Of a stretch of 64,000 bases of DNA, positions 4,178 through 52,371 are shown one piece after another. This DNA comes from Paracyclopina nana (lineage: Eukaryota; Arthropoda; Copepoda; Cyclopoida; Cyclopettidae): NCBI GenBank assembly GCA_019096065.1, contig JAGUCH010000003.1, positions 5,642,001-5,706,000 on the forward strand. Reading direction: 5' to 3'. A program made the translations under genes and the position numbers. The notes beneath the pieces were generated by a model. The model saw nothing but the letters and a program-made list of their open reading frames with translations, did not search any database and had not been told where the DNA came from. How positions within the stretch are numbered: position 1 is the first letter of the stretch; each line of letters opens with the position of its first letter.

Positions 4178-6639
4178 TTAAAGTGGAGGCAGAGCCCACA
4201 AAGAAGCCGTCTTGTCAGCACTTGTGCTGAGGAACGAAAAGTCTGTGGGATGCCATCTGCCCGAAATGACTTTATCTTGATGCTGCGCAACCACCACACT
4301 GGGCAACTGGGCGGTCAAATCTCCCTGGAGGTCGGTCAAGACCAGACGATTGTCATATCCACCAGTAAGCAAGTAAAATGCATTAGGGGAGAAGCGGACA
4401 CTCCGGACATCAGCGGAGTGAGTTTTGAAGGACTGCACCGTTCTTCCGCCCCGAACGTCATATAGGATCACCGATGCATCCTCATGTCCAGTGACTAAAA
4501 GCCTTCCACTCGGGTCAACGCAACAAGCAGCAACTGCTGACCCGTTGTTGCCTCCGTATTGGACCATATTGACGCAACCCCCTCCTCTGGAGCGTGTATC
4601 CCAGAAGCGAACAGTTTTGTCGGCTCCCCCCGAAGCAAAGACGCTGCCACCCCAAGAGAAGAGGCTTAACACGTGACCCGTGTGGCCTGACAGAGACTGT
4701 AGGATAGTCATGGTGGCACAATCTGTCAGGTGAATCCTGCAATCTCCCGCTCCTCCGGATGCCAAAATGGTTGCTCCGCTTGGAGTGTCATTCAGAAAAA
4801 TGCAATCGCGCACAGTTCCATCATGAGCTGTGACCTCAGATTCATGAGCTCCGAGGCTGGCGGTGATGGCGTCATACTGAAGAACCTTGACCACCTTGTC
4901 ATTCGAGCCGGTGGCAATCAAGTCACCCTTGGGACTCCATGCAAGGCAATATATGGAGCCTTTGTGATGTTTGGCCCGTTTGGCCAAAACTATGGGTGGC
5001 TGCGGAGTCTTAGGATGCACTAGCTTCTCGGGGTAGGCGCATAGCCTAAGGGTTTTCGAATTGGAGCCCACTGCAAATAACCTGCCCGAAGGGTGAAACT
5101 CAGCACACCTTATTGCCTGCACATCTTCCAGCGTGTTCACTGGCATGAATCTCGGTGCAGAGGAGCTAACGGTTGACTGCACTGATTGCTTCGTGACCTC
5201 GTGAAGGTCGTCCTCCTCTGACCTGTTCAGTGGCTCTTCCATTATGGTACCAGTCTTTTGTCTGTGATATTCTGACACCAGTTGAGTCTTTTGCTTGTCG
5301 GGCTGCTCCGGAGCTCCCTTGGAGCTTCCCTCTAGGGGAGCCACACTTTCACCCTCTTTGAAGAGGTGGTCAACAGATTCGTCCATAGCTTTGTTCCTGC
5401 CGTTTCCACTGCCAGATTTGCCTCCCTGAGAGGCGCCTGATCCACCTCCTCCAGGACTGGTGGTCAAGTGGAAGCTGGCAAAGCTCTTTGACATGTCCAC
5501 CATGCCTTTGGCACCACCATTTTCAGCCCTGTTCCCAGATTGCAATAAGCCGCCACCTCCGGAAGAGGCTCCATGGAATGACATGTTTAACGACTTGGTC
5601 ATTATATCTGCTCCCTTTGGTCTCGTGCTCGGCATGGCTGAATGAGGGAAGATGTTGGGCTTAATTGGAGTGATGAGCATGTGTTCTGTCCAACTAGTCT
5701 CCAGGGTGGGATTTTTTAGCCTCTCAACATCAACATTGAGGCTGCGCTGCTCGAACGGACAAGCAAACGTGTCGGAGGGTATGCTCTGCAGCCAAGATAA
5801 CAAGCTTAGGTCGCTGTCGCTGAAATCCGACAAGCTTAGCAGGTTGGTGAACTTGATGTGGTCCGAGTGTTTGGCGCCTGTGGCCTTTTGCTGGCAAAAG
5901 TCCACGCATGACTCATATAATATTCCTTTGATGATAAGCTGCAATAGCCTGTCGTTGGAGGCCACCAGCTCGGGGTCACCACTTTCCTCTCCATTGGTGG
6001 CTAGGTGCCTTTTGTCGCCGCCTAAAAGCTCATCGACTAAAGGTAGCACATCTTTGAAGCAGCTGTGTCTTCCCTTGGAAGGGTTCCATGATTTGTAGTC
6101 GGGATGATCTGATAGCTTATTCATGGTAAGAAGCAGGCAGAGATTGGAGTAATGCTCTTTGCTAGGAGCGACTGCTTCAATTTCCTTCAGAACCTGAACC
6201 ACTGTATCAACAGCCTAAAAAAGGAAGCAAGAGGGTAAATATTTTCTCACCCGAGGTCATGAGTAAAATAAATGTTGGATGTCCGTGCAGTATGCTATAT
6301 GTAAGCACTTACTTGGTCAGTGGAAGCTAATGGAGCTTCACATTTGATGCACATGAGCTCCACAAACTTTGCTCTGAGGATGATGAAGAGAAATTGCTTG
6401 TAATTGAAGGCAGGCAACGCTGCCAATGGTTGAATGAATTCCACCACATCATCCCATTGCCCATCCAAAATGAGTTGCCTGAGGAACAAAAGGTCATCCG
6501 AGTAGTGGCCATTGATGACTCCAGTCTCTCTTTCCAGTGTGACTTGGGAGATGTGCAGATCCCGGTTTTGCAGAAACTCGCAGGCCAGTTTGACCACATC
6601 TTCTTCGCGAAGGACTAGATGGGTGGTTGGCCCAGCCAT
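4178..6639 (-). CDS. WDR47: WD repeat-containing protein 47 (nemitin-like)
   Basis: Two exons, 6639-6313 and 6214-4178, joined in phase 0, giving 787 residues. Residues about 10-105 form a LisH-CTLH module (FLQNRDLHISQVTLERETG, then LILDGQWDDVVEFIQPL). A helical region with SKEHYSNLCLLLTMNKL and WNPSKGRHSCF follows, then a Gly/Ser-rich linker. From about residue 455 to the end lies a seven-bladed WD40 propeller, with repeated GH/AH...WD-type blades such as FASGGADKTVRFWDTR. This order is that of vertebrate WDR47 (about 920 aa), a microtubule-associated neuronal protein acting on microtubule stability and transport. The linker is shorter here. The start at 6639 is the ATG nearest the LisH; an in-frame ATG also exists at 6660. 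Confidence 0.93.
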
Positions 6640-10101: not shown

Positions 10102-13100
10102 CTACATATCATTTCTCCAAGCGAGGCCTTGCTGGAATTCTTGATGGGAAATTTCATCGAGGTTTTCAAAAGCCTCAAAATCCACTTCTTCCTCGCCTTC
10201 CGATGGCGACCCGTTGAAATCGACCAGTCCCATTTCACGGAACTTCTTCTCGATTTCGTCTAACTCAAATCGAGCTCTGTAGTGATCATCATCAAGCTGC
10301 ACAAAGCCAGCTTCTGCCTCTTGGCCTTCATTCGCCATATCAAAGGGCGTACCTTTATAACAACCTGCAACAAAATTATTTTGCCACAATCTCATAAGCC
10401 GCGAATTGCATAAACCTCACCTTTATCAAGTACATATTTCAGAAGAGATTTCCACCACTTGTCCTTGACCAGGAGGTAGGGATTACCAATGACGACCAGC
10501 AAAGCCTTGGCTCTTGTAATGGCCACGTTAAACCTGTACAAATGAAAATGTAGGAGAGTCGAAAATATCAATAGATTATTATCAAATACCTCTTTGGGTT
10601 GTTGAGGAAACCCAGTTTGTGCTCGTAATCAGCTTGCAGAAGAGTCGGCTGGGACCTCACAGTGGAAATGATGATGACCCGCCTTTCCTGGCCCTGAAAC
10701 TCCTCAGTGGATCCCACAGTGATATTTTTCCAGTTCTGGTACTTCTTCTGGTTTTGGAACTTTGAGTTCAACAGAGCCTTAATTTTTTGCACTTGCCTTC
10801 TGTAGGGAGAAATGATTCCAATTTCACCAGGCAAGACCTGCAAGAACAAAGACGTCACATTTGAAAATTACAGCATTTATACGGGTTACCTTTTTGGCCA
10901 CGGCTTTGTCACCAGTATCGAGCAATTGTTGAACATATTGCACAACCAAGGCAGCCTCTTCAGGGTTGAAGTATGAGGGGCTTCTCGCTTCTCTCTGATC
11001 TTCACCAACCACTCCATGGAATACGAGTGGAATGCTCTTATCAGGCAGATTGTCCCAATTCAACAGAGAGTTCACCACCATAGGATCGGCCGCAGCTTTT
11101 AGCTCATTTTCATAGAACAGTTTGGAGGGCAAGCTCAGCAGGGTCTCATGGCTCCTGAAGTTTTTCAGCAATTTGGTAATTGTCTTTGAGTGGAACTCTC
11201 TCGTTACTGGGGACCTCTGGTAGCATTGGATTTGACTCATCAGTCTCTCTAGAAGAGAGAGTTGCAAGCCATGCTTGAGAGCGATGGGAGATCTCAAAAC
11301 AGGGCCTAGCTGCTTAGGATCTCCAGCTAGAACTACCTGGCCTTTAGGGTAAGCCAAAATATTTGCTAGCGCGATCATAGCTTCAGGCTCGGTGGCGTGT
11401 CCTGCTTCATCAACGAAGACATGCGAAAAATGATCTTGAGGAAACTTGGCTGAGGCTACTCTTCCGGCAGTAACTAGGGTGACGACAATCACCCTGTAAT
11501 TCTTCAGGCTACCCAAGGAAACATCAGCGTGAGAAGGGTGAAAGTTGGAAATGTCAAGAATATCTTTTGGGACCGACTTCTCCATCCTTGATGGAGCGTA
11601 GAACCTCATGATTTGAGTCTTGGGAATGTGCTTGATGAGCTTTTGAGCGAGCAAGTCAGCCGCTGAATTAGACGGGGCAGCAGCCAAGATATGGCTGTTT
11701 GCCTTCACCTTCCAAACTTGCTTGATAGCCTCAGTCATGGTCACAGTTTTTCCAGTGCCGGGCGGCCCAAAGATGATGTAGGGTACACCCTCTAAGCCTC
11801 CATTGACAATGCTGCGAACGGCCAGATTTTGCTCTTCGTTGGCCTCAATGAAGCGCTCGAAGAAAGCATTTCTGCTGGGAGGCACCTCCCCCTCTAATTG
11901 CTCAAGAGGTGGAGATGGAAAAACCATCGATTCCATAAAAGGAGTGGCAGCAACGAACTGGACTGCCCTGTGCATGTTCCTCAGTGGAAAACGGTTGAAC
12001 GTAAATCGAATGTTGAACCTCATATTTGGAATGAACCTAAAAACATTGGTCAGCACTGTGTGATAATAGCTAACTGAAAAAGATATTTTTACCGGTTGCG
12101 AAGCTTAGGAGAAAATCCGATCAAGATTGAAGTATCTTCTACTTCGTGGACATATCCTTGGTACTCTTTGGGTTCAGGATGAGGGTCATCGTTGCGAGCG
12201 TACACTTGAGCATAGATAGAATCGCCCTTGAGGACAGAGGGGCGATTTTCAGCCAACCCCAGGACTTGAAGCCTCAGCAGATTGGGACCCGAAATCGTCA
12301 TCTCAACTCTCTGAAAATTAAAAACACAAGATGATACAGATTAGCCTAAAAAATGCTTTCACAATTTACCTCCAAGTCATAGTTCCTAATATCCAACTCC
12401 ATTTGAAGCTCTTCACAATGAAGCAAAGTCTCGAATCTCTGATAGTAATTGGAGTGAGAAAGAGGCGACTCAAGGCAGCCTTTGTAGGCCTTCATAGCTT
12501 CGTCAGTTTGGCGATCCAGGGTAATATTCTTATTGTCCTTTTTGAGAATATTTCTTAAAGCAGGTTTGATTTGAAAATGATCCAACTTCCAATTGGACAC
12601 CAAACGGGATCCTCCGCCATCAGACACTGTTGTCAATGGCAAACCTGGCTCCAAAGTACGGAAGTGAAGCCTCTTTGCAATCGGCTTGGGCCTTTCGTAG
12701 GGAGCGATGGGTTTGATTTCTTCGACATCCTTGTTGGTAACCTTCAGCAATATTTCTCTGGCAATAATGTAGAGTTGGCCATCAATTCTGCCGTCCGACA
12801 GCCTCTCGTTGAACTGAACAAAAAAGGGCATTCTGTACTGGCCAATGTCGGGCTTCATACACTTGATTTCAAAGGGGTAAGCCTGGCCTTCTTTGATCCA
12901 AATTCCAGCCTTAACCTTATCATCCCTTTCAGTGGGACTCTTGAACATGCTCCATCTATCGTTGGGCTCGAAACCTGGGTCATTTGTCATCATCTCCATC
13001 CTTTTGAGAACGATGCTATGTTTGGTGTCGCGCTTTTCCTCAATGGCCGCCTGATTTTCTAGTCCATTTTTCTCTTCAGGATCAGTAGCTTTTTTCTCAT

Positions 13101-16100
13101 CATTTTTGCGAGATGCAGCTCCTTTCTTCTCGCCCGCTTCATCGCATTTTTTCTTCTCCATTTTTCCACCGCCTTCGGGGGGAACCCCGTTCGAGACCGC
13201 AAGTTTTAATGTGACAGGAACACCTTGTCTCGTCTTCAGGATGTATTTGCCACTCTCATAGTCAAAATCCAAGATATCAGAAGATGGACCTTCGATGGAA
13301 AGGGAAATGTTTTCCTTGTCGGCAACCAGCTGATCCCTAAAAAGCGAAGAGAATGATATATTTATGCATTCAGAACATTCAGAAACTCTTGACAGAAGCA
13401 TGATGCGTTGAATAACCCCGCCGTTGAGGTGAGAGCTGGCGCAAAGCCAAAAATCGAGGCATATTTTTGTCAACGCGAGAGTTGCAAAGGAAGAAATCAA
13501 AATGGACCAAGTTTTATCTTCGAGCTTCGTGCAAAAAGTCTTCGATGAAATTAGTTTAGAGGACAAAATGGACCTGTGGATGTCTGCAGAGGATTACAGG
13601 CTGCAGGAGAGGATTGAGTTTTTGGCCTCTTACAGCCAGACAATGTTCATCGAACAACTTTTCAGTCAGGAGAAAAGAGTCAACCTGGCAAAAAACTCGG
13701 CCCTTTGTAAAGGATTCTTGGCAAAAGCTGGAAGTATGGCCCAAAAACAAGAATGGAATCAAGTTTTGAATTTGACCAACATTAGCCTCACATTTGAACA
13801 GGCAAATGAAAGTGAACTACACAGCAAAATTGTGCTCTTGCGAGCAGAAGCAATGCAAAAACTTGACACTAATTTAAGAGATCCGATAGATCCGACCACC
13901 AGCGAAACAATTGGGTAAGGATCAGTTCACCGATGAAATTGCAAACATAATGATTAAGTTTGAACCTGCAGATTCTCAGATTGTGTTTCAATAAAAGAAA
14001 GTGATCACCAAGGAAGATTCACCGTGGCAAATCGAGACATCGAGGCAGGTGAACTTATCGCCATCGATCAACCTGTGGTGAAGCATTTAGACAAAGAGCA
14101 CGTGAAAACTCATTGCTGGCATTGCTTGAGATCAACCCAAAACTATGCCATAACTCCGTGCTCCATGTGTTCAGGCGTCTTATTTTGCAGCGAAATTTGC
14201 AGAAATTCAGCTCAGACCTCCTATCATAGGTAAATGCATTTGAAATCAAAAACTACTATTTCGCTAGACCTTAAAAAACCTCCTAACTATTGAAGGCATG
14301 AATGTGGCTTAACTGACATATTGTACAAGAGCGATATTGGCGTGTGGATTTTGGCTCACAAGAGCGTGGCATCGCATCCAAAGGAAACTTTTCTTCAAAG
14401 TGAAAAATTGCCTCCAAAATTGGACGAGTATTGCAAACTCGCCAACCACTACGGCTCAGACAAATTTACCGCACCAGAGCTAATGAAAGAAGCTTTAGTT
14501 TGCGTTTTCCTTACGCGATGCCTGCAGTCAACAGGCTATTTTGATAAGCCCTTATCAAGAGACCCATCCTTTGGCAAAGAAGAGCTGCAAATCGCCCTAT
14601 GGGTTCACAGATTCATGAGAATTTCCAGGTTCAACTGCCACGCTATCAGAGAAGTTGTCAAGGAGCCGAAATTTCACACCTTGAGCATTGGCGTCGCAAT
14701 CAACCCAACATTAGCTATGATTAATCATTCCTGCGACTCCAATTACGGCCGCGTTTGGGACTTGGATCGCGACCAAGTCAAAGCTTTTGCTACTAGACCA
14801 ATCAAAAGAGGGCAAGAAATCACTGACGGGTATTCGGGCATTTTTGCAAATGTACCAAAAGAGGACAGAAGCAAAATTCACTCTCGCTACCATTTTGACT
14901 GCAATTGTGTGGCTTGTGAAGAGAACTGGCCCACCAAAGTTGGATTGTCCGGTAAATTGCCTAATGGGAAGCAAGCTTCTAAACTCAAATCATTGTTGAG
15001 CAAGCCCAAAACATTACCTAATCTCAAAGAAGAGCTGGAGCTGGCTTACGAAATTCTCAAACCGCCCCACTTGATAATAAGCCAAATAGAAGACGATTTC
15101 TACCAAGCTCTCCGTATGGCAAACTAGCTACATAATCCAAGGATAAAAAGCTAAATCGCTTACCTGTGCTCGCAAAAGAAATGAGCGAAAAAGTTCCTTC
15201 GATGCCGCAGCGTCATTTTATGCTCAGTAAAGTCTTCATCAGACACGAAGGCTTCACCGCAAGGAGTGCATTTCCGCCTTGGGGTCTCCATGATCAACCG
15301 GGAAGGCTCAGAGCCGACGTCCAACTTTGATGAAACTGAAATAAGCGCCTCTCGAATTACAGACACTGATAATGCTACACTTATTGTTATTTAAATAAGA
15401 TAAATTGCGGTTTCTCACCTTTGGAAAAGATTGCTCCGGAGTGCGCTATCAAGTAGCCTTGCCTTGGAGCACCCCTGAGAGTTATGATCTCATGTTTGAG
15501 CTTTAAGCTAGATGCAAAGCTACGGACTGCATCCGTTGAAAACTGGCAAATTAGAAGAACTTCTTGGTATTGAGCCACAGCTACAAGAGAGCGGTCAGTT
15601 GCACAATTTTTGCTTACGAATTAATCAGGGCACCTTTGAGAACGTTGACGAGCAACTCTTTGTAGAAGTCATCTGCACGATCAGCAAACTCACGAACGAC
15701 TCCAACTGCAAAAAATTGATAATTTAGCCATTTAAAAAGGGGAAAATAAGCGATGATGTAAAAGTTGATCTTACCACAAACAGTCGGCGTTTGCAAGCCC
15801 TCTTTCGCCTGAATTTGATCGGGATACGAAAGGCTGATCCAAATCTCCTCACTTGATTGGCTTATCATTTCTGTTATAAATGATGGTTCCAGCATCGAGT
15901 TCACATACAGAACCAATCCTCCAATTCCATTAACAACATCTTGCCTAATATACATATACAGGACGTCAAAAAATGCAAATAAACAAATCTTACTTGAACT
16001 ACTTACTTGAAAGGTCGGAAGCCTTTGATACTGATTTCAGAAAGCTCCACATTTTGAGCCAAATTGGTGTTCATGGCACAAAGGATGGCTGGATTGTAGT

Positions 16101-16692
16101 CATTCATCACGTTGGTGATGTCTTTCATGTTAAACGCTAGAATAAATGAAATAGAGACTTCATGAGTCTTAAAGTATTTGCATAACCTCACCAACAGGAA
16201 AAATGATGGATGAAATGATGAGCTTTTTCGGATTCAGTTCGATCCGAACAGTCTTGTTTTGCGTGGACTTGCTCCTCACTTTGATCATCCTGTTGGTGAT
16301 TTCCTCCATTTGCTGGTCTAAATCTTCTCTTACGGAGTTGAAGCATTTCAAGTTATGGGCAGTGAAGCTTATCTCGTCTGGATTCACAATCAGATGTCGA
16401 CTCGTTATAGCAAAGAGCTTCAAGTCTTCAAAATCGAGGATGAAATCGCTTTTGTTCAGAGCCTGCAAGATTACCAATACCAAACACATGGATGCCAAAA
16501 GGCTAGGTTTTTCGAACGTACCTTGTTATGCTTGAAATGAACATTATAAATGGTCTTGATTTGATTCAGAGACAAGTTTTCATAGACATTGCACCTCAAT
16601 ATCTTTTCATTGATGAGGAACTGCACGAAGCCATTGAAAGTGGTCTCATACAGAGAATTGTCCATAATCTGATCCGCATTTTGCGGAGCCAT
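10102..16692 (-). CDS. MOV10/Armitage-family RNA helicase with N-terminal EEP-like region and C2H2 finger
   Basis: Thirteen exons on the minus strand: 16692-16522, 16462-16192, 16136-16007, 15944-15775, 15705-15634, 15580-15419, 15365-15164, 13336-12370, 12310-12093, 12036-10890, 10837-10590, 10533-10421, 10364-10102. All phases match, giving 1377 residues. Residues from about 393 on are an SF1 Upf1-like helicase of the MOV10 type: EELQMELDIRNYDLE beta-domain motif, Walker A GPPGTGKT (about 878-885), APSNSAADLL, DEAG box (about 997), AGDPKQLGPV, GSTEEFQGQER and FNVAITRAKALL. MOV10 proteins unwind RNA and act in small-RNA silencing and retroelement control. Residues 358-380 form one C2H2 finger (C-x2-C-x12-H-x5-H). 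Residues about 110-320 resemble a catalytically dead EEP fold. Exon 7 could instead begin at 15344. That exons 1-6 belong to the same transcript is inferred from phase alone. Confidence 0.8.
13337..15163 (-). other. Intron of the MOV10-like gene hosting an antisense gene
   Basis: The donor CACAG|GTAAGCG at 15163 leaves AG, and the acceptor TTTTTAG before 13336 supplies G, so the phase is conserved across 1827 nt. Every other intron of this gene is about 50-90 nt except the roughly 250-nt one between exons J and K. The whole plus-strand SMYD4-like coding sequence lies in this interval. Confidence 0.75.
13502..15127 (+). CDS. SMYD4-like SET and MYND domain protein
   Basis: Exons 13502-13914, 13972-14229 and 14296-15127 join in phase (GG|A, AG|G), giving 500 residues. 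Residues about 1-138 are helical and TPR-like (LAKNSALCKGFLAKAGSMAQKQ...). A split SET domain begins with FTVANRDIEAGELI. A MYND zinc finger is inserted in it (CWHC, CSMCSGVLFCSEIC, HECG at the exon 2/3 junction), followed by the SET core with the AdoMet-binding motif NHSCDSN (about 367) and the GQEITDGYSG segment, then a post-SET cluster CNCVACEENW. This order is SMYD4/SMYD lysine methyltransferase. The usual core Tyr motif (DYY/NYG) appears as DGY, so activity is uncertain. The C-terminus is short compared with vertebrate SMYD4 (about 800 aa). Confidence 0.85.
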
Positions 16693-25724: not shown

Positions 25725-26980
25725 AATTGCTCCAGAACAGGTTTGCACATCCAGAATCATGACAGGTGCACAACACCTGAAAGTTTGCACCTTCTAAATT
25801 CTCTTTGGCACCACCTGAGCTGAGCTAGACCAAAAAAGGGGCATTCCATGGAGGGATTTTCGAGCGCAAGACCTTTTTCATTATCGAGTAGCAGCATATG
25901 TAGTATAGCAATGGCAATTGCTCCAGAACAGGTTTGCACATCCAGAATCATGACAGGTGCACATCACCTGAAAGTTTGCACCTTCTAAAATCTCTTTGGC
26001 ACCAGCTGAGCTGAGCTAGACCAAAAAGGGGCATTCCATCGAGGGATTTTCGAGCGCGGAACTGTTACATTATCGAGTAGCAGCATATGTAGTATAGCAA
26101 TGGCAATTGCTCCAGAACAGGTTTGCACATCCAGAATCATGACAGGTGCACAACACCTGAAAGTTTGCACCTTCTAAAATCTCTTTGGCACCAGCTGAGC
26201 TGAGCTAGACCAAAAAGGGGCATTCCATCAAGGGATTTTCGAGCGCAAGACCTTTTTCATTATCAAGTAGCAGCATATGTATTATAGCAATGGCAATTGC
26301 TCCAGAACAGTTTTGCACATCCAGAATCATGACAGGTGCACAACATCTGAAACTTTGCACCTTCTAAATTCTCTTTGGCACCATCAGAGCTGAGCTAGAC
26401 CAAAAAGGGGCATTCCATCGAGGGATTTTCGAGCGCGAGACCTTTTTCATTATCGAGTAGCAGCATATGTAGTATAGCAGTGGCAGTTGCTCCAGAACAG
26501 TTTTGCCCATCCAGAATCATGACCGGTGCACAACACCTGAAACTTTACACCTTCTAAATTCTCTTTGGCACCATCAGAGCTGAGCTAGACCAAAAAAGGG
26601 GCATTCCATCGAGGGATTTTTGAGCGCGAGACCTTTTTCATTATCGAGTAGCAGCATATGTAGTATAGCAATGGCAATTGCTCCAGAACAGGTTTGCACA
26701 TCCAGAATCATGACCGGTGCACAACACCTGAAACTTTGCACCTTCTAAATTCTCTTTGGCACCATCAGAGCTGAGCTAGACCAAAAAAGGGGCATTCCAT
26801 CGTGGGATTTTTGAGTGCGAGAACTTTTTCATTATCGAGTAGCAGCATATGTAGTATAGCAGTGGCAGTTGCTCCAGAACAGTTTTGCCCATCCAGAATC
26901 ATGACAGGTGCACAACACCTGAAAGTTTGCACCTTCTAAATTCTCTTTGGCACCAGCTGAGCTGAGCTAGATCAAAAAAG
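25718..26980. repeat. 190-bp satellite, right part of array
   Basis: Continuation of the array, with unit starts at 25811, 26002, 26191, 26381, 26571, 26762 and 26953 (spacing 189-191) and a few point differences such as CCATCAGAGC variants in later units. Short open frames here are satellite translations, not genes. Confidence 0.93.
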
Positions 26981-27183
26981 TGACGTTCATTCAGTTGTCT
27001 TGGCTGCAATCCAAGGATCTCTTAATTGAAGCCATTTTCAACTTTTGTTCATACGAAACTTTGGCACTCCTGGTTGAATAAGGGAGCATAACACCATGAA
27101 AAATAGACTTTCTTTCATCTCCTTGCATCCATTTGAGTTGATTCAGCCTAAAAAGTCCACTTTCCAGCCTTGGTCTTGGCTGG

Positions 27184-28043
27184 CCCGTGTTCGCTGTGTT
27201 CGCCCGTGTTCGGCCATGTTCACTGTGTTCGGCCGTGTTCGGCCGTGTTCGCTGTGTTCGCCCGTGTTCGCTGTGTTTGCCCGTGTTCACTGTGTTCGCC
27301 CGTGTTCGGCCGTGTTCACTGTGTTCGGCCGTGTTCGGCCGTGTTCGCTGTGTTCGCACGTGTTTGCCCGTGTTCGCCCGTGTTCGCCCGTGTTCGCTGT
27401 GTTCGCCCGTGTTCGCTGTGTTCGGCCGTTTTCGCTGTGTTTGGCCGTGTTCGGCCGGTTCCGCTGTGTTCGCCGGTTTTTGCTGTGTTCGCCGGTGTTG
27501 GCTGTGTTCGGCCGTGTTCGCTGTGTTCGCTGTTTTCGCCGTGTTAGGCCGTGTTCGCTGTGTTGGGCCGGGTTCGGCCGTGTTCGCTGTGTTCCGCCGT
27601 GTTCACTGTGTTCGGCCGTGTTCGGCCGTGTTCGCTGTGTTCGGCCGTGTTCGGCCGTGTTTGCTGTGTTCGGCCGTGTTCGGCCGTGTTCGGCCGTGTT
27701 TGCTGTGTTCGGCCATGTTCGCTGTGTTCGCCCGTGTTCGCTGTGTTCGCCCGTGTTCGGCCGTGTTCCCTCTGTTCGCCCTTGTTCGGCCCTTTTCGCT
27801 GTGTTTGCCCTTGTTCGCTCTTTTCGGCCGTGTTCCCTGTGTTCGCCCGTGTTCGCTGTGTTCAGCCGTGTTCGGCCGTGTTCGCTGTGTTCGGCCGTGT
27901 TTGCTGTGTTCGGCCGTGTTTGCTGTGTTCGGCCGTGTTCGCTGTGTTCGCCCGTGTTTGCTGTGTTCGCCCGTGTTCGGCCGTGTTCACTGTGTTCGGC
28001 CGTGTTCGCTGTGTTCGGCCGTGTTCGCTATGTTCGCTGCCTT
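27184..28043 (+). repeat. GTGTTCG minisatellite (G/T-rich strand on +)
   Basis: About 860 bp of 9-10-bp units: GTGTTCGCT, GTGTTCGCCC and GTGTTCGGCC in variable order. Because no unit or junction contains a plus-strand stop codon, all three forward frames stay open, giving artefactual proteins of Cys/Val/Arg/Phe/Pro repeats up to 358 codons. The same family occurs reversed at 40683-41112. Confidence 0.93.
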
Positions 28044-28049
28044 GGTTAT

Positions 28050-28560
28050 TCCATCCGTACTATTAGAGCTTGGCACACACAGCACACAATTTGGCACACA
28101 CGGCACACACAAGTCCAAAACGCATACTTAGAGATGGAAATTCGCCATTTTTTTGTTGGTTCCCAAAATTAAGCCTGTTTTCCAGTTCTCACACAAAAAC
28201 TTGACATGCTGAGTCATCTTTAGCACAGTCTCAGCACTTTTTCAAATTCTCACACAAAAACTTGACATGCTGAGTCATCTTTCGCCCAGTCTCAGCACTT
28301 TTTCAAATTTCCAGTTGCTTCAGTGAAAGAATCTAATCTATTAGAGCTTGGCACACACAGCACACAATTTGGCACACACAGCACACACAAGTCCAAAACG
28401 CATACTTAGAGATGGAAATTCGGCGTTTTTTTGTTGGTTCCCAAAATTAAGCCTGTTTTCCAGTTCTCACACAAAAAACTGTGATGCTGAGTCATCTTTC
28501 ACCCAGTCTCAGCATTTTTTCAAATTTCCAGTTACTTAAGTGAAAGAATCTAATACATTA
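28050..28560 (-). repeat. TGTGTGCC-containing repeat block, inverted copies
   Basis: Two tandem copies beginning at ATTAGAGCTTGGCACACAC (28063 and 28340). Each holds a GGCACACA array, AATTAAGCCTGTTTTCCAG and TGACATGCTGAGTCATC. They are the reverse complement of the 220-280-bp units at 36990-38330. Confidence 0.88.
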
Positions 28561-50195: not shown

Positions 50196-50391
50196 AGTTT
50201 TCTAGAATCACCGAGTGTAACAGCTTTCTACCTCGATCCAACATTTTCGCGAACTTTCCGTAGCTCCCCTATTTAAAGTTCGAGCTCTGCCACAAATAAA
50301 TCAGACTCTCAAGGAAAGCTGAGAAAACAACACTTAAAAATTGTAAGCGAACAAACTCAAATCTCAATCTTACTTGAAAGAAAAAATAACG
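50196..50391 (+). promoter_or_regulatory. Heat-shock promoter and 5'UTR of HSP70
   Basis: A two-unit heat-shock element TTCTAGAA lies at 50200-50207. A perfect three-unit element, TTC-GC-GAA-CT-TTC, lies at 50246-50258. A TATA-like TATTTAAAG follows at 50270-50278. The 5'UTR (about 50300-50391) is A-rich with AAGCGAACAAACTCAAATC, like the leaders of arthropod inducible hsp70 mRNAs. Confidence 0.82.
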
Positions 50392-52371
50392 ATGGCACCA
50401 AAGAACGTGGCTATTGGAATTGATCTTGGCACTACCTACTCTTGTGTAGGAGTGTTTGAGCATGGCAAAGTGGAAATCATTGCCAATGACCAAGGAAACA
50501 GGACAACTCCTAGTTATGTGGCTTTCACCGATACCGAAAGATTGATTGGTGACGCTGCTAAGAACCAAGTGGCTATGAATCCTAACAACACCATTTTTGA
50601 TGCCAAGAGGTTGATCGGACGCAAGTTTGATGACCCCACTGTGCAGAAGGATATCAAGCACTGGCCATTCAAAGTTGTGAAGGAATCAGGAGGGAAGCCA
50701 AAGCTGGAAGTTGAATTCAAATGTGAAACCAAGCAGTTTACTCCAGAAGAAATCTCTTCCATGGTCCTTACCAAGATGAAGGAAACCGCAGAGGCTCACC
50801 TTGGACACACTGTTAAAGATGCGGTCATCACTGTACCAGCCTACTTCAATGACTCACAGAGACAAGCTACCAAAGATGCTGGAGTCATTGCCGGCTTGAA
50901 CGTGCTAAGAATCATCAATGAGCCTACTGCTGCTGCAATCGCCTATGGCCTGGACAAGAAAAAAGGTATGGGCAAGGAAAGCAACGTCTTGATCTTTGAT
51001 CTCGGTGGTGGTACCTTTGATGTCTCTATTCTCACCATTGATGATGGAATCTTTGAGGTTAAGGCCACTGCAGGTGATACTCATCTTGGTGGTGAAGATT
51101 TTGACAACAGGCTTGTAGAGCACTTCATCAAGGAATTTGAGCGGAAGCACAAGAAGAATCTTAGTGGCAATAAGAGGGCAATTAGAAGATTGAGAACAGC
51201 CTGTGAGCGTGCCAAGAGAACCCTGTCAGCATCTGCCCAAGCTAGTTTGGAAATCGATTCCCTCTTTGAAGGCATTGATTTCTACACTTCCATTACCAGG
51301 GCAAGGTTTGAGGAGCTTTGTGCTGATCTCTTCAGGGGAACCCTTGAGCCAGTGGAGAAAGCTCTCCGTGATGCCAAGATGGACAAGTCTTCTATCAATG
51401 ACATTGTTTTGGTTGGAGGATCCACCAGGATTCCCAAGATCCAAAAGCTTCTCTGCGACTTCTTCAATGGCAAGGATTTGAACAAGTCCATCAACCCTGA
51501 TGAGGCTGTTGCCTATGGTGCAGCAGTCCAAGCTGCCATTCTCACTGGTGAGACCCATGAGTCAGTCTCTGACTTGCTTCTTCTTGATGTTGCACCCTTG
51601 AGCATGGGTATTGAAACAGCTGGAGGAGTGATGACAACCCTGATCAAGAGAAACACTACTATTCCCACCAAGCAAACTCAGATCTTCACCACTTACTCTG
51701 ACAATCAGCCTGCTGTCACCATTCAGGTCTATGAGGGAGAGAGAGCAATGACCAAAGACAACCACATGCTTGGCAAGTTTGATCTAACTGGCATTCCACC
51801 AGCACCAAGAGGGGTGCCTCAGATTGAGGTCACCTTTGACATTGATGCGAATGGCATTTTAAATGTGTCTGCTGCAGACAAATCTTCTGGAAGATCAGAG
51901 AAAATCACTATTACCAATGACAAGGGTCGCTTGAGTGCTGATGAAATTGAGAGAATGGTTGCTGATGCAGAGAAGTACAAGAATGAGGATGACAAGCAAA
52001 AGGAGAGGATTTCTGCAAAGAATGGCCTGGAGTCTTATTGCTTCAACATGAAGACAACTGTTGAGGATGAAAAGTTGAAGGATAAGATTCCTGAAAGTGA
52101 CCGCAAAACTATTGTGGATAAATGCAATGAGGCAATTAGCTGGCTGGATGCTAACCAAATGGCTGAAATTGATGAATTCAAAGACAAGCAGAAAGAAGTT
52201 GAGGCTGTTTGCAACCCAATAGTTACCAGACTTTATCAGCAAGCAGGAGCTGGAGGTATGCCAGGTGGCATGCCAGGAGGTATGCCCGGAGGTATGCCTG
52301 GAAACTGTGGAGCTCAAAGTGGTCAAGGCTTTGGTGGCTCATCAGGACCTACTGTTGAAGAAGTTGATTAA
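50392..52371 (+). CDS. HSP70: Heat shock protein 70 (cytosolic)
   Basis: Single uninterrupted reading frame of 659 residues. All three Hsp70 signatures are present: [29 protein letters not shown] and [15 protein letters not shown]. The substrate-binding domain is followed by a GGMP-type tail (four GGMP repeats) and the terminal EEVD that binds TPR co-chaperones, marking a cytosolic/nuclear form. ATP-driven chaperone. Lack of introns together with clear heat-shock elements upstream points to a heat-inducible rather than constitutive (HSC70) gene. The start is MAPKN at 50392; the upstream in-frame TTG is not a start. Confidence 0.97.

Follow-up and report, generated by a model that had tools for sequence, protein, structure and literature searches.

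The window examined here is a 64,000-nucleotide stretch of the genome of the copepod Paracyclopina nana (assembly GCA_019096065.1, contig JAGUCH010000003.1, positions 5,642,001 to 5,706,000 of the forward strand); positions below are those of the window. Its minus strand carries a gene for a helicase of the MOV10 family (Table 1), in which some 156 residues predicted to descend from the endonuclease of a long interspersed nuclear element (LINE) sit between a MOV-10_N-like part and a C2H2 finger.

The predicted protein comprises 1367 residues if exon 7 begins at the acceptor at 15335 (83-base intron) and 1377 residues with the acceptor at 15365 (53-base intron, the choice of an earlier first-pass annotation of this DNA); both acceptors are in frame, and endonuclease profile scores of the two versions lie at most 0.8 bit apart. 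Ten of the 12 introns measure 52–69 bases, one 83 and intron 7 1827, the six introns among exons 1–7 spanning 53–83 bases. The chosen frame is free of stops throughout exons 1–7, exon 7 has none before its donor, and phases across the introns join in frame with GT-AG borders. The open 13-exon frame supports what the first-pass annotation had described, namely short introns of matching phase and a path through the C2H2 finger into the helicase. By a codon-preference table built from exons 8–13, the chosen frame scores positive in exons 1–5 and 7 and negative in exon 6. A Pfam scan of a segment containing the finger, here read as U1-type, listed no family. On the plus strand of intron 7 lie two open reading frames (ORFs), one at 14294–15124 with a SET domain (E=1.3e-7) and one at 13433–13915 with no Pfam match, and cysteine-rich MYND-like sequence was seen by eye near them; these opposite-strand frames are probably a nested gene.

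Table 1. Features of the helicase gene, in window coordinates
Feature	Position	Strand	Details
Whole helicase gene	10102..16692	-	13 exons, 12 GT-AG introns, one open spliced frame
MOV-10_N-like stretch, residues 22-61, exons 1-2	16451..16629	-	PF21632, E=0.11, 13 bits, cut-off 27.4
Exons 3-6 cassette, residues 148-325	15419..16136	-	534 coding bases, phase-1 introns both sides
Putative LINE-endonuclease-derived stretch, residues ~148-303, exons 3-6	15486..16136	-	phmmer, BLASTP, Smith-Waterman and block shuffles against L053
Exon 7	15335-15164	-	carries the C2H2 finger
C2H2 finger, residues 348-370, exon 7	15202..15270	-	pattern C-x2-C-x12-H-x5-H
Intron 7	13337..15163	-	1827 bases, holds opposite-strand SET-domain ORF
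Mov-10_helical domain, residues 634-701	12382..12585	-	PF21635, E=1.4e-14, over cut-off
MOV-10 beta-barrel, residues 702-789	12003..12381	-	PF21634, E=1.3e-25, over cut-off
SF1 helicase core, residues 843-1260	10482..11843	-	AAA_30 843-1026, AAA_11 best stretch 955-1027, AAA_12 1036-1260

The Pfam domains of exons 8–13 identify a MOV10 helicase. Searched exon by exon at E<=0.1, the 92 Mb genome yields a single MOV-10 beta-barrel match, and the core is of the UPF1-like superfamily 1 (SF1) type (AAA_11/AAA_12), UPF1 being the best match in the PDB. A putative, weakly matching MOV-10_N, the helical domain, the beta-barrel and AAA_11/AAA_12 follow one another in the same order as in the UPF1-like SF1 helicases MOV10, MOV10L1 and Armitage; different from that family are the LINE-endonuclease-like residues and the C2H2 finger after the MOV-10_N part, and the length, human MOV10 having 1003 residues (residue numbers in PMC12140422). 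MOV-10_N was the sole Pfam family listed for the 134-residue N-terminal segment, below its cut-off, and the chance that a random segment matches exactly this family at that level is about 4e-6 (0.11/24,736 families), to be multiplied by four for the four sequences given. The match of this short segment to MOV-10_N, though weak, makes it most likely that the front exons and the helicase are parts of one gene. With the helicase part as query, a genome search found, besides the exons of this gene, parts of seven other UPF1-like loci at 28–45% identity; the four of these that were examined gave no match below E=0.5 to the N-terminal, endonuclease, finger or Ig/helical segments, and one locus is HELZ-like by reading. 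On the best reading of these comparisons, this gene is the only MOV10-type helicase found in the genome.

Similarity of exons 3–6 to a LINE endonuclease

The comparison sequence that carries the argument was retrieved with four typed consensus endonucleases, all four of which match both Exo_endo_phos and Exo_endo_phos_2; as baits they brought up three loci among 58 candidate stretches of genome contigs. One, L053 (DQSS01000312.1, from an Arcobacter metagenome-assembled genome), is a genuine LINE by its domains (Exo_endo_phos E=1.5e-11, RVT_1 E=1.2e-32), is CR1-like by reading, and is probably animal or other eukaryotic DNA contaminating the bacterial assembly. Further natural LINE endonucleases were not forthcoming: viral contigs gave none or chance matches, phages none, and the 20 matches listed from 166 plasmid records cover only the reverse-transcriptase part of L053. 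Taken singly, consensus sequences 1 and 4 align to the helicase gene's domain at z 13.2 and 18.2, and numbers 2 and 3 at z 1.2 and 0.6. A profile of all four reaches 30.4 bits for the domain; it was set aside as support, having been composed after the window had been read.

Against L053, BLASTP aligns residues 150–299 at 34.7 bits and E=4e-7 (a single comparison with composition adjustment), with 37 of 152 positions identical (24%). The phmmer domain score is 22.5 bits, a value reached by none of 5000 shuffles (4018 scored, the highest at 7.3 bits), and -0.2 is the top score among 21 tiles taken from the remainder of the helicase. Smith-Waterman alignment gives z of about 12–13, and 13.4 when nine sequences of the endonuclease/exonuclease/phosphatase (EEP) superfamily are compared, among which only L053 is a strong match; human L1 stands at z 2.1 and the other seven between -1.0 and 0.8, two bacterial EEPs falling at 0.8 and -1.0. 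The three cellular EEPs taken from the copepod genome, of which two are fragments, lie at z -0.4 to 0.3. Such low values are at best weak evidence against homology, because 13 of 15 true EEP pairs fall under z 3 too when compared in this way, all but TRAS1–R1Bm (32.7) and L053–L054 (5.4). These comparisons support homology of residues ~148–303 to the endonuclease of a CR1-like LINE, and suggest that the piece came from a LINE similar to L053, and not from a cellular enzyme or from the R1 group of LINEs. The affinity to a CR1/jockey-type LINE proposed in the first-pass annotation is borne out for a CR1-like element by the BLASTP match to L053; no similarity to the cellular EEP enzymes compared was detected.

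The extent of the resemblance was delimited by block shuffles, in which one block at a time was randomised 1500 times with the rest kept, and scored with a profile of L053 plus human L1 or with L053 alone. With the two-sequence profile, shuffles reached the real score in 1026 cases for residues 129–147, 4 for 148–160, none for 161–200, 18 for 201–235, 3 for 236–303 and 238 for 304–345; with L053 alone the corresponding counts were 646, 8, 0, 98, 43 and 1143. A start of the LINE-like part at residue 129 is not supported by these shuffles, which move it to ~148, and the supported stretch runs from the opening residue of exon 3 to a point inside exon 6. The endonuclease-like pattern that the first-pass annotation had read across exons 1–6 is accordingly upheld against L053 for exons 3–6 (residues ~148–303), and not for exons 1–2 or residues 304–345; the segments it quoted (NPAILCAMNTNL, EISIKGF, GIGGLVLYVNSML, EEIWISL, DDFYKELL and EVLLICQFSTD) are all present, in order, in one spliced frame. 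Judged by sequence, an endonuclease's first strand and its last third are lost, replaced or beyond recognition. In LINE endonucleases, the last third is where the Asp-His pair is located.

Exons 3–6 form a cassette with introns of equal phase on both sides, and skipping it would leave the helicase frame intact. Exonisation inside one phase-1 intron would produce such matching phases, which are also expected by chance about one time in three.

Active-site positions of the L1 endonuclease are listed as Asn14, Glu43, Tyr115, Asn118, Asp145, Asn147, Asp229 and His230 (PMC8565326), and no position on this list retains its residue in the gene's domain. In the alignment Glu43 corresponds to Asn170, Tyr115 to Arg252 and Asn118 to Ala255 (L053 has Pro there), and Asp145/Asn147 correspond to Gln284/Ser286 in one alignment and to a gap in another; Asn14 (opposite Ser142) and Asp229/His230 (opposite Glu335/Pro336) fall within the unsupported stretches. 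The loss of catalytic residues claimed in the first-pass annotation therefore holds at the alignable positions, and we infer that the endonuclease piece is catalytically dead. As a description only, since three of the five aligned sequences are typed consensus, 27 of 28 all-hydrophobic columns are retained, the exception being the catalytic tyrosine.

A search of the genome with the endonuclease domain gave nine matches, seven of them the gene's own exons and the other two at E 0.34 and 1.0. The piece is a single copy inside a host gene, without the rest of an element: MOV10 domains follow it, whereas reverse transcriptase follows in L053, which also differs in retaining its SETW, GDLN and ADH motifs. 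Scans of the genome with PF14529, a typed consensus and L053 turned up no LINE bearing an endonuclease; the L053 scan had no control, and its empty result by itself shows nothing. PF03372 gave 16 matches, of which the ten loci cut out were read by eye as cellular enzymes; one weak genome match considered as a LINE endonuclease was rejected, as it sits in an ORF that is transposase-like by eye. Reverse-transcriptase matches abound (150 scored among 658 candidates), and many of the long ORFs have identical scores. The retroelement content is lopsided as found, with many reverse-transcriptase ORFs and no endonuclease-bearing LINE found.

Origin and possible role of the endonuclease-like stretch

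LINEs are without introns. The capture of the LINE piece, as read from sequence, is suggested to be old, because three introns split exons 3–6, identity to the nearest LINE available for comparison is 24%, and the genome scans brought up no LINE with an endonuclease. The best explanation, to which we give a probability of about 0.55, is that an old, catalytically dead piece of a CR1-like LINE endonuclease was exonised in a MOV10-type helicase and has been kept as a binding module. In this account a phase-1 intron of a pre-existing MOV10 gene would have received a LINE fragment that then became exonised, three further introns would later have cut the exonised piece, and the dead piece would persist as a module that binds nucleic acid or partner proteins. 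A dead endonuclease would most simply act as a binding surface, and the most likely division of labour would be that this piece docks while the helicase remodels RNA or passes it to decay or silencing. Human MOV10 restricts LINE-1 and associates with the LINE-1 ribonucleoprotein particle (RNP) (PMC3475670, PMC12140422), and the copepod helicase may likewise target RNPs of retroelements and take part in small-RNA silencing. The genome contains several Argonaute/Piwi genes (16 matching stretches). A more pointed version, in which the dead piece serves as a homing or decoy device on a switchable cassette, binding LINE RNPs, target-site DNA or ORF2-type proteins and so aiming MOV10, we consider unlikely.

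Several observations count against exonisation with retention as a binding module. A single natural LINE matches strongly, with human L1 by itself at the low z value given above and with no match to TRAS1 or R1Bm, and that LINE was obtained with consensus baits composed after the window had been read. No EEP match for the domain appears in Pfam, NCBIfam or the PDB at E<=10. A profile of three PDB LINE endonucleases scores 0 bits, a value reached by 118 of 2000 shuffles, this profile being without power in that true EEPs of the genome score at most 3.4 bits with it. Nearly all of the signal against L053 is carried by residues 129–230 when cut out alone (z 11.6), and residues 231–303 cut out alone do not match (z 0.2); the block shuffles with either profile leave residues 129–147 and 304–345 unsupported. 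The retention of core hydrophobicity is not independent evidence, its shuffle control having given no clear outcome. Codon preference in exons 4, 6 and 7 is higher for another frame, itself containing stops, than for the chosen one. MOV-10_N is absent from the listing when 325 residues or the whole protein are scanned at E<=10. For human MOV10, action against LINE-1 is reported to depend on the extended motif II and the C-terminal domain (PMC12140422), and an N-terminal addition here would therefore be an extra.

Chance or convergent resemblance, by which a lineage-specific insert of MOV10 with a beta-alpha-beta rhythm would merely look like a LINE endonuclease, would account for the lack of a match to curated profiles and for the matches that the PDB does list for the domain, which are C-type lectin chains only (E 0.02–0.16). 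It is already disfavoured by the composition-adjusted BLASTP comparison and the shuffled phmmer scores, and the block-wise support follows the order of the endonuclease; we hold it to be very unlikely. Similarly improbable is a division into two genes, in which exons 1–6 or 1–7 form a separate LINE-derived gene and the helicase begins in exon 8. The length of intron 7 (1827 bases, against 52–83 in the other 11) and the SET-domain frame on its opposite strand would fit such a border, as would the weakness of the MOV-10_N match; against it stand the in-frame GT-AG joins, the lack of a stop in exon 7 before its donor, and the position of MOV-10_N, which, if real, lies beyond the endonuclease stretch from the helicase, and a two-gene split would therefore separate MOV10's own ends.

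Less probable than retention as a binding module, and more probable than the two readings above, is that the LINE-endonuclease piece is real and functionless, translated or partly skipped, and open only since the helicase lies downstream, with an active site that has drifted. The changes at the alignable catalytic positions, the missing similarity of the first strand and last third, the weak codon preference in exons 4, 6 and 7, and a frame-keeping cassette that the helicase could do without are all what such a passenger would present. Against this, some 150 residues are still recognisable at 24% identity, and each block of residues 148–303 adds score in the two-sequence profile, which suggests some constraint. 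The shift of the start of the LINE-like part to ~148 led us to weight the functionless alternative higher, and an exonised piece kept as a binding module lower; the latter remains our preferred explanation.

Neighbouring genes, precedents and meaning

Elsewhere in the window, a GNAT acetyltransferase gene lies upstream of the helicase on the minus strand (18340–17410, Acetyltransf_1 E=5e-13, its several exons pieced together by eye), and part of a WD40 gene with a WDR47 cross-over region occupies 4181–6214, also on the minus strand. An intronless open frame of 674 residues on the plus strand (50347–52368) matches HSP70 over the whole profile. At 26991–28172 long ORFs overlap on both strands, with no Pfam match for the one ORF scanned; this stretch is probably low-complexity or repetitive DNA, and positions 26001–28000 have a GC content of 0.51 and an AT skew of -0.28.

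Host genes built from transposon parts are already known. The host gene of bovine p97Bcnt, to our knowledge, does not encode a retroelement-restricting helicase. This paralogue of BCNT/CFDP1 contains an RTE-1 endonuclease domain (Iwashita 2003, 2006, as cited in PMC7284322); it thus resembles the present gene in that a LINE endonuclease domain was taken into a host protein, and differs in the clade (RTE) and in the host gene. L1TD1, likewise a LINE-derived host protein and a precedent for like binding like, is a domesticated LINE-1 ORF1 that is reported to associate with its ancestor, L1 ORF1p (PMC11925450); in contrast, it derives from ORF1 (PMC4161310) and not from the endonuclease, and it is reported to promote LINE-1 retrotransposition instead of restricting it (PMC11925450). 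No fusion of MOV10 with a LINE endonuclease was found in the literature searched, a partial coverage of open-licence papers by titles and abstract starts. What is new here, taking the gene model and the homology as predicted, is that the LINE part lies in a helicase whose family restricts LINEs.

In mammals MOV10 holds LINEs in check, and a gene that joins such a helicase to a disarmed fragment of the element it restricts would allow a direct test of domain-guided restriction. Even as a passenger, the piece would be a clear relic of the exonisation of a LINE fragment in a helicase gene.

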